From Bacillota bacterium (GTDB taxonomy: Bacteria; Bacillota; Dethiobacteria; Dethiobacterales; Dethiobacteraceae): a DNA stretch of 36,392 nucleotides. How positions within the stretch are numbered: position 1 is the first letter of the stretch; every line of letters starts with the position of its first letter. The position numbers were made by a program, and so were the translations under genes. The DNA is taken from assembly GCA_012521405.1 (NCBI GenBank), contig JAAYMK010000134.1:1-36392 (forward strand). Direction: 5' to 3'. Under the pieces are notes generated by a model. That model was not told where the DNA came from. It saw only the letters and a program-made list of their open reading frames with translations, and made no database searches. Below are positions 19,989 to 23,341 of the stretch, in pieces.

Positions 19989-21809
19989 ATGATTGGGAAA
20001 ATATTGGGGAACCGTTACAAAATAGTTGAAAAAATTGGAGACGGTGGAACAGCCTTTGTTTTTAAAGGTTTGGATACCATTCTTAACCGTCATGTGACCG
20101 TCAAAGTATTAAGACCCGAGTATGCCGGTGACCAAGATTTTGTCCGCCGTTTCCGGCGTGAGGCACAGGCTGCTGCCGGTTTATCGCACCCCAATATTGT
20201 CAGTGTTTACGATGTTGGCCATGAAAATGGCATTCATTATATAGTGATGGAGTATGTGCAAGGACGTTCATTAAAGGCTTTAATTGAAGAAACGGGGCGT
20301 CTTAATGTCTATACGGCGGCAGAATATGCTGCCCATATAGCTTTAGCTTTAAGTCATGCCCATAAGCACGGAATTATCCACCGGGATGTAAAGCCCCATA
20401 ATATTCTCATTAGTGATGACGGGAGGGTAAAAGTCACTGATTTCGGTATCGCCCAAGCCGTTACAGCTTCGACCCTAACTTATAGTGGAGAAATTCTAGG
20501 TTCCGTACATTATTTTTCCCCGGAACAGGCCCGGGGCGGCGCCACAGATGAAAAATCGGATATTTATTCTTTAGGGATTGTCCTGTATGAAATGTTGACA
20601 GGACGCCTGCCCTACAGCGGAGAATCACCTGTTTCTATAGCGGTAAAACATTTACAGGAACCTTTTCCTGATCCCGAAGAGATTAACCCGCAGATTCCAA
20701 GAGCCTTATGCCGTATTGTGCGTAAAGCGGTAGAAAAAGATCCCCAAAACCGCTTTCAAACAGCCCGGGAAATGGCTGCTGCACTGAATGAGTGGTTGCA
20801 TGAGAATAAAGCTGAATTTTCAACAATTGTGCGCCCCTCTATGCACAAAACAGAAAAGCAAACAAACCTCCGTTCCCCAAAAACAAAAAAGCGTCGTTTA
20901 AAACCTGTCTATCTTGCCGGTGTGCTGGCTCTCATTATCGTTTTAATAATTTTAGCGTATACAGCCACAAGGCTGTTGCAAATTTTTGCCGTTCCTGATG
21001 TGATTGTACCGGATGTGGAAGGAGAACTGCAAAGCCAGGCTTTTGCTATTTTAGAAGAAGCCGGCCTGGTACCGCGCCTTGAGGACCAGATCCCCAGCGA
21101 AACAGTCCCCTCCGGGTATGTTATCAGCCAAAATCCCAAGGAGGGCAGGACAGTGAAAAAAGGTCGTGAAGTGGCGTTAATCATCAGTACCGGACCTGAA
21201 CTAGTCAGTGTAGATAATGTGGTGGGTATGCAAAGACGTCCGGCAGAGTTAAAACTTGAAGACAGTGGTTTTAATGTGGAGGTAATTGAGGAATACAGCG
21301 ACGAGCCACAAGGAATTGTTATTTCTCAAGATCCCGGTGCCAATCATAAAATTCCTAAAGGCTCTACGGTGAAAATTGTGGTCAGTAAAGGGAGCAAACC
21401 TATTGAACTGGTAGATTTAACGGGGCGGACCTTGGAAGATGCCGAAAACTGGCTCCAATTATTTGGCCTTATTCCACGCAAAACCAGTGAAGAATATAGT
21501 GATCAGTACCCTGCCGGCTATGTTATTGATCAGTTTCCGGAACCGGGGGAAAAATTGCAGGCCGGTGATTACGTGGATTTAGTTATCAGTAAAGGTCCGG
21601 AAGAACCGCAGCTGGAAAAACATAATATTACCATTATGACTGCCGATATACCACCTGGAGAGATCATCACTGTCATTATCAGTGATGAAATGGGTGACCG
21701 GGAAGAAACTTATGTCAGCGACGGCAACCCCATTGAAACGGTTGGCTGGGGCAGTGGCATAGTTGAAGTTCGGTGGGGAAATCACATCGAGGTAAAAGCA
21801 TTTCCATAA
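19989..21809 (+). CDS. prkC: PASTA-domain Ser/Thr protein kinase PrkC
   Basis: A membrane Ser/Thr kinase whose outer PASTA repeats sense cell-wall fragments; in Bacillus it governs germination and growth-phase responses. Residues 10-270 form the kinase: glycine loop IGDGGTAFVFKG, catalytic Lys39, Glu58, HRDVKPHN with Asp133, DFG Asp151 and GSVHYFSPEQ. A basic stretch (297-304) precedes one transmembrane helix at about 306-329. Three PASTA repeats follow, near 338-404, 405-470 and 471-538. A C-terminal segment of about 65 residues, rich in beta strands, is typical of PrkC. It has 606 residues. The ATG lies 27 bases after prpC and follows GAGGTGAAGAG. The same-frame stop leads directly to the rsgA ribosome site. 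Confidence 0.95.
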   Translation: MIGKILGNRYKIVEKIGDGGTAFVFKGLDTILNRHVTVKVLRPEYAGDQDFVRRFRREAQAAAGLSHPNIVSVYDVGHENGIHYIVMEYVQGRSLKALIEETGRLNVYTAAEYAAHIALALSHAHKHGIIHRDVKPHNILISDDGRVKVTDFGIAQAVTASTLTYSGEILGSVHYFSPEQARGGATDEKSDIYSLGIVLYEMLTGRLPYSGESPVSIAVKHLQEPFPDPEEINPQIPRALCRIVRKAVEKDPQNRFQTAREMAAALNEWLHENKAEFSTIVRPSMHKTEKQTNLRSPKTKKRRLKPVYLAGVLALIIVLIILAYTATRLLQIFAVPDVIVPDVEGELQSQAFAILEEAGLVPRLEDQIPSETVPSGYVISQNPKEGRTVKKGREVALIISTGPELVSVDNVVGMQRRPAELKLEDSGFNVEVIEEYSDEPQGIVISQDPGANHKIPKGSTVKIVVSKGSKPIELVDLTGRTLEDAENWLQLFGLIPRKTSEEYSDQYPAGYVIDQFPEPGEKLQAGDYVDLVISKGPEEPQLEKHNITIMTADIPPGEIITVIISDEMGDREETYVSDGNPIETVGWGSGIVEVRWGNHIEVKAFP

Positions 21810-21827
21810 TTTGAGGAGGGATATAGC

Positions 21828-22697
21828 CTGCAGGGAATAGTAGTTAGAGCCATAGGAGGTTTTTATGATGTCCGGACACGGGACGGCAAGGAATATCGTT
21901 GCCGGGCCCGCGGACGTTTTAAAAAAGACAAAATTAATATTTATGTAGGAGACCGGGTAGAATTTACGGTAAACGCCAATGAAGGTGTCTTGGAAACGGT
22001 AAAGCCGCGGCGAAATTTTTTAATTCGCCCACCGGTAGCTAACCTTGACCAGGTGATAATCGTTTGTGCCCTGCAGAATCCGCCTTTATCACTCCAATTT
22101 TTAGATCGTTTACTGGTATTGGCTGAAAGCAGACAGCTGCGGGCGCTAGTTTGTCTTAATAAAGCAGATTTGCCCCATGATGATGTTTCCCAGTTGGTAA
22201 CCTATTATGAAAATACCGGGTATAAAATTATTTTTACCAGTGCCAAACTTGGGCAGGGAATTGAAGATTTGCGCAAAGAGTTGAATGACCGTGTTTCTGT
22301 TTTTGCCGGACCCTCTGGAGCCGGGAAATCTTCTTTACTTAATTGCATAAAACCCGGGATTAATTTAAAAACCGGCACTGTTTCTACTAAAAGCAAAAGA
22401 GGCCGTCATACCACCAGACATGTGGAATTGATTCCTCTGGAAGCTGAAGGATTTGTGGCCGATACTCCAGGTTTTAGCCAGCTGGAGCTTACTGAAGTCA
22501 CAAGCCAACAACTACCGTATTATTTTCCCGACTTTTTTCCCTTTGCGGAAAAATGCCGCTTTAACACCTGCCAGCACCTTAAAGAACCGGATTGCGGCGT
22601 TAAAGCTGCCGTGCAGCAGGGGGAAATTTTGGCTTCACGTTATGAGCATTATTTATATTTTCTCAATGAAGTGAAACAACAGGAGCGAGAGTATTAA
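21828..22697 (+). CDS. rsgA: Ribosome small-subunit-dependent GTPase RsgA (CTG start)
   Basis: RsgA checks late assembly of the 30S subunit. The circularly permuted GTPase order is clear: NKADL (G4) near residue 111, GPSGAGKSS (G1) near 161, DTPGF (G3) near 212. Zinc ligands follow as Cys243, Cys248, His250 and Cys256. The N-terminal OB-fold ([14 protein letters not shown], then [11 protein letters not shown], then YVGDRVEF) is present only if translation begins at CTG 21828: there is no in-frame ATG, GTG or TTG before the TTG at 21990, which would delete the whole domain. GAGGAGGG (21813-21820) stands 7 bases before the CTG. This yields 289 residues, the usual length. The stop overlaps the rpe start by one base (TAATG). 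Confidence 0.95.
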
Positions 22698-23341
22698 TGT
22701 TGAAGATTGCACCGTCATTGCTTGCAGCCGATTTCGCAAGGCTGGGGGAAGAAGTGAAAAAAGTGGAAGCCGCCGGAGCGCACTGGCTACATTTTGATGT
22801 GATGGACGGCCATTTTGTGCCTAATTTAACCATGGGACCGCAGATTGTCCAAGCACTACGCAAACATACATCACTTTTTTTTGATGTCCATCTTATGATT
22901 GAAAAGCCCGAACGTTATCTCGAGGTTTTTGCACAAGCAGGTGCCGATTTGTTGACTGTATCGGCGGAAGCGTGTACGCATTTGCACAGGGTTTTGCAGC
23001 AGATTCGTGCTTTGGGCGTGAAAGCCGGTGTGGCCCTAAACCCGGCAACGCCGTTATCAGTACTGGAGTATGTACTTGATGATCTGGATTTAGTGCTCAT
23101 TATGAGCGTCAATCCCGGGTTTGGTGGGCAGGAGTTTATTCCGGCCGTGCTACCCAAAATTCGCAAGCTGAAGGAAATGATAGGCAATAAATCTTTAGAG
23201 ATTCAGGTAGACGGTGGCATAAATGCCGAAACGGCACCTTTAGTAAGGGAGGCGGGTGCCACTGTGCTGGTGGCGGGTACTGCCGTTTTTGGGCAAGATG
23301 ACGTCAAAGAGGCAATGAAAATGTTGCTGGCCAGAAAATAA
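22697..23341 (+). CDS. rpe: Ribulose-phosphate 3-epimerase
   Basis: Interconverts ribulose 5-phosphate and xylulose 5-phosphate in the pentose phosphate pathway; it is a metal-dependent TIM barrel. Signatures are [14 protein letters not shown] at the start, [18 protein letters not shown] with metal-binding His/Asp, [27 protein letters not shown], and [11 protein letters not shown] with the catalytic Asp. It is 214 residues, normal. Its ATG shares one base with the rsgA stop and is preceded by CAGGAGCGAG (22680-22689), so translation is probably coupled. No terminator is visible before the riboswitch of the rib genes. Confidence 0.96.

Follow-up and report, generated by a model that had tools for sequence, protein, structure and literature searches.

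The rsgA gene in the window (the whole 36,392-nucleotide stretch of Bacillota DNA analysed here) is predicted to start at a CTG codon, and by comparative evidence both this assignment and the conservation of the codon are secure. The CTG appears to be an old trait of the bacterial class to which the genome belongs, conserved over most of that class, and not a single oddity. Bacteria very rarely start genes with CTG, and few conserved instances are on record; RsgA is the protein that finishes assembly of the small ribosomal subunit. We consider it probable that selection has kept CTG 21828 as a weak, IF3-discriminated start that would hold RsgA scarce relative to 30S subunits. Within this explanation we infer the low yield, the IF3 dependence and the purpose of the CTG start.

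The layout of the locus is given in Table 1. The rsgA product matches NCBIfam TIGR00157 at 257.7 bits and carries two Pfam domains, RsgA_N (residues 2-53, above the cut-off) and RsgA_GTPase (PF03193, residues 58-221, 195.5 bits). The GTPase is circularly permuted, with NKxD preceding GxxGxGKS and DxPG, and in an alignment with 20 relatives (alignment A1) the residues N111-K112-D114, G161...G166-K167-S168 and D212-P214-G215 are conserved, as is the C-terminal zinc-binding Cys/His cluster, in which C243, C248, H250 and C256 are invariant. The window gene is RsgA, a predicted small-subunit biogenesis GTPase, and this locus is the genome's sole full-length copy. By the sequence and the ORF list, the frame holds no ATG, GTG or TTG from the prkC stop up to rsgA codon 55, and the whole OB fold is encoded before a conventional start codon first appears in frame. 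The first-pass annotation had placed the prkC stop, the CTG, the TTG and the 289-residue frame exactly where Table 1 has them, and had put the OB fold ahead of the first ATG, GTG or TTG (the TTG at codon 55). It had also warned that gene finders limited to those three codons would cut 54 residues from the protein, and the first such codon is indeed TTG 21990.

Over rsgA codons 2-54, pN/pS ranged from 0.14 to 0.68 in eleven pairs (0.16 in the own-genus pair), indicating that these codons are translated; the first 54 codons encode an OB fold under purifying selection. The chance that the CTG of the window is an artefact of sequencing or assembly, or that a truncated protein is made from TTG 21990, is negligible: the contig does belong to a draft assembly of 165 contigs, but the same CTG is present in dozens of independent assemblies, including one complete one-contig genome, and the OB-fold codons upstream of the TTG are those under purifying selection. 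Within the OB-fold codons (GGFYDV), positions 21854-21867 of the window read AGGAGG-TTTTT-ATGATG, a good ribosome-binding site for a short out-of-frame ORF, which probably arises as a side effect of the encoded protein motif.

Table 1. Features of the rsgA locus in window coordinates
Feature	Position	Strand	Evidence and remarks
prkC, PASTA-domain Ser/Thr kinase	19989..21809	+	NCBIfam NF033483, 619 bits; same operon, upstream of rsgA
prkC stop TAA	21807-21809	+	in the rsgA frame; ORF list
Shine-Dalgarno GAGGAGGG	21813..21820	+	7 nt before the CTG; read from the sequence
rsgA start codon CTG (predicted)	21828..21830	+	no other in-frame NTG until 21990; class-wide conservation
rsgA CDS, 289 residues from the CTG, small-subunit biogenesis GTPase (predicted)	21828..22697	+	TIGR00157, PF16745, PF03193
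RsgA_N OB fold, residues 2-53	21831..21986	+	Pfam PF16745, 66.9 bits
TTG, first conventional in-frame start codon, rejected as start	21990..21992	+	would remove 54 residues
rsgA stop TAA	22695-22697	+	frame open from CTG 21828 to here
rpe, downstream gene, ATG start	22697..23341	+	TIGR01163, 303.7 bits; ATG overlaps the rsgA stop (TAATG)

To place the codon in its lineage, rsgA was gathered from 98 genomes of the same class, and the start could be read in 85 loci. The codon aligned to CTG 21828 is CTG in 62 of these 85 and ATG, GTG or TTG in none. The CTG is the sole possible NTG start, with no other NTG in the ten preceding codons or back to the nearest in-frame stop, in 38 loci that represent six of the seven families (f1, f2, f3, f4, f5 and f7); the count of CTG-only loci rises to 43 if upstream NTG codons that lack any Shine-Dalgarno are discounted. 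Nearly all CTG-start loci have a G-rich Shine-Dalgarno before the codon, and in most class relatives it measures 4-8 nt at comparable spacing. In the tree of 84 RsgA proteins, CTG starts lie on all major branches and the start type changes 12 times in total. The first-pass annotation had proposed a CTG start 7 nt after GAGGAGGG, to be checked by aligning homologues; that alignment finds the CTG and a purine-rich Shine-Dalgarno conserved over most of the class, and in the window the CTG is the sole in-frame NTG before 21990.

Alternatively, the aligned CTG could be a conserved Leu codon in second position, left from an ancestral Met-Leu N-terminus, with the true start at another non-NTG or a conventional codon upstream. 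ATG-CTG or ATG-CTA is a frequent opening of rsgA in relatives outside the class, and in some class members an ATG, GTG or TTG stands at codon -1 or -2 relative to the aligned CTG. We nevertheless regard this as very improbable, because the 38 loci offer no NTG except the CTG over the stretch searched, because the codons upstream vary (AGC, AAT, TAC, TTA, TTC, CAC, TCG, ACA, AGA) with no conserved near-cognate codon among them, and because an ordinary Leu codon should not be CTG in 100% of cases. Production of RsgA by readthrough or frameshifting from prkC would suit the window, in which the two genes share one frame with a single stop between them. However, across the 43 CTG-start loci a gap of 13-47 nt almost always separates the end of the upstream gene from the CTG, and all three relative frames occur, which excludes this route for practical purposes.

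The rsgA start codon appears to be conserved beyond coding expectation. On the tree of CTG-start loci the start column shows 0 codon changes against 12-21 at other conserved Leu columns, counts that correct only in part for kinship among sequences that are not independent; the start column is 100% CTG, compared with 27-52% at the other conserved Leu columns of the same loci. The loci in the zero-change test were picked for having CTG, and the unselected 85 are likewise without ATG, GTG or TTG at the position. A single base change would turn the CTG into any of these stronger starts and is seen in 0 of the 85 loci, whereas other Leu positions of rsgA in the class often show synonymous exchange between CTG and TTG. 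Only 2 of 61,358 ancestral AUG starts were found to have switched to CUG (Belinky et al., PMC5622118), and a class-wide CTG is therefore not a drift-prone state. These observations bear on neutral inertia, by which a weak start was fixed once and has been tolerated since, a strong Shine-Dalgarno and coupling to prkC being sufficient. The Shine-Dalgarno is indeed good and the prkC end close by, and a search for conserved RNA structure over the rsgA start, which might have added control, found none (mean z +0.29). Given that the one-base step to a stronger start is absent from all 85 loci while the equivalent swaps are common elsewhere in the gene, we consider inertia unlikely.

The weak CTG is dispensable, as is seen from the ATG, GTG or TTG codons upstream of it in some class members, from the ATG start of rsgA in family f6, and from a sub-clade of family f3 in which the start has switched to a TTG one codon upstream of the aligned position. 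This sub-clade serves as an internal control for retention of the CTG. In most f3 loci with the upstream TTG the aligned codon has drifted, to CAG, CAA, CAT, CAC, CGC, CGT, AAT, TCT, GTC, CTC or CTT, and this loss indicates that the CTG is retained chiefly where initiation depends on it.

Outside the class, the 61 rsgA loci read in other parts of the phylum gave ATG in 35, TTG in 11 and GTG in 11. A CTG start was found in all three members of family f53 and in the single genome of family f52, and rsgA of family f13 seems to start with ATC. For the gene of E. coli K-12 MG1655 (L268:4458-5510, minus strand) the annotated start is a TTG. Across lineages, rsgA thus appears to return repeatedly to weak or noncanonical starts.

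Other genes in the same genomes were used as controls. Long ORFs whose first ATG, GTG or TTG lies 25 or more codons beyond the stop, and which have a CTG, ATT, ATC or ATA behind a Shine-Dalgarno of at least 5 nt, were sought in about 784 kb, comprising 384 kb of the window's own genome (274 long ORFs) and 400 kb of a complete genome (269 ORFs). In the own genome rsgA was the only CTG case; in the complete genome the clear cases were rsgA (CTG, AAAGGAGG) and infC (ATT), alongside one ambiguous ATT ORF. General usage of CTG starts in these genomes is rejected, as neither stretch yielded a second CTG ORF. The starts of rpe that could be aligned in the class loci are ATG, GTG or TTG and never CTG, a control that is partial because the rpe N-terminus is not alignable residue for residue in family f3. 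The infC gene, which encodes IF3, is the textbook case of a start discriminated by IF3: it begins with AUU, AUC or AUA and is autoregulated by IF3. Its start is ATT in 30 of 30 class loci, mostly behind a GGAGGTGA-like extended Shine-Dalgarno, so the method recovers a known conserved noncanonical start, and the IF3-discriminated kind of start is retained in the same bacteria. As a separate observation, a gene for a NarL-type response regulator in the own genome (Response_reg and GerE domains; G000:C70, L229:12138-12767, minus strand) has no ATG, GTG or TTG for over 50 codons and seems to start with an ATT behind CAGGAGG. The same ATT is found in a sister species (L367), and more distant relatives have ATG or GTG.

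In the mechanism we favour, the initiator fMet-tRNA would read CTG 21828 despite mispairing at the first base of the codon, and initiation would be directed there by the strong Shine-Dalgarno that closely follows the prkC stop. IF3 would discriminate against the weak start, giving a low yield of RsgA, and selection would keep the CTG so that RsgA remains scarce relative to 30S subunits. Initiation complexes formed on CUG have lower stability than those on AUG, GUG or UUG (PMC11497404), IF3 represses starts other than ATG, GTG and TTG, such as the GTC of sigR (PMC5472188), and in reporters other conserved noncanonical starts from Bacillota, those of ccpN and cvfC1, reached about 10-30% of the yield from AUG (PMC13009471). 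The suggestion of the first-pass annotation that the CTG might keep the level of RsgA low fits the comparative evidence, because no lineage has moved to a stronger start at this position and infC keeps its ATT in the same genomes. An unchanged CTG over most of the class suggests a deliberate brake on the amount of RsgA, and to judge from this conservation the most likely purpose of the codon would be to keep RsgA low relative to 30S subunits.

A possible, if doubtful, extension of this explanation would make the CTG a feedback sensor: when mature 30S subunits or IF3 function fell short, discrimination would relax and more RsgA would be made. On this tentative view rsgA might stand beside infC as a second gene whose class-fixed noncanonical start reads the state of IF3 and 30S fidelity; the supply of RsgA would be self-adjusting to 30S assembly, and the CTG, ATC and TTG starts elsewhere would be convergent. 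IF3 and RsgA both act on late 30S subunits, where RsgA at the decoding centre releases RbfA, a release that IF3 also performs (PMC9032327). The invariant ATT of infC in the class and the recurrence of weak or noncanonical rsgA starts in other lineages are likewise consistent with a sensor, but TTG, GTG or ATG suffices in E. coli and in most of the relatives from the phylum. Such a loop would, speculatively, resemble IF3 acting on its own AUU start.

With its conserved CTG, rsgA appears to join the few bacterial genes in which a noncanonical start is conserved. It resembles infC in being a ribosome-linked gene with a start other than ATG, GTG or TTG, a strong Shine-Dalgarno and a codon held across deep divergence. 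It differs in that the codon is CTG, that RsgA is an assembly GTPase whereas the infC product is the discriminating factor itself, and that feedback on rsgA is hypothetical. Streptomyces sigR is similarly a single chromosomal gene with a conserved noncanonical start and an extended ribosome-binding site; its GTC start is IF3-repressed, and a canonical replacement overproduces the protein (PMC5472188). The sigR codon is conserved in one genus only (32 of 34 Streptomyces, PMC5472188), whereas the CTG of rsgA, known from sequence, spans six families. The starts of ccpN (AUA, in S. aureus and B. subtilis) and cvfC1 (AUU, in S. aureus) are also conserved, noncanonical, from Bacillota and behind a strong Shine-Dalgarno, but their codons and functions are different (PMC13009471). 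E. coli rsgA (yjeQ) belongs to the same family, has the same function and does not start with ATG either, although its TTG is a conventional start and its N-terminal extension and operon differ. A search of one literature library for rsgA with a CUG or other non-AUG start found no paper.

The start codon of a ribosome-assembly factor gene that is CTG, invariantly, in dozens of species over six families argues for weak starts as a maintained control element. For annotation, gene callers limited to ATG, GTG and TTG would drop or misplace the RsgA OB fold in much of the class. For the biology of these bacteria, the rsgA CTG offers a link, open to direct test, between the fidelity of initiation and the assembly of 30S subunits.
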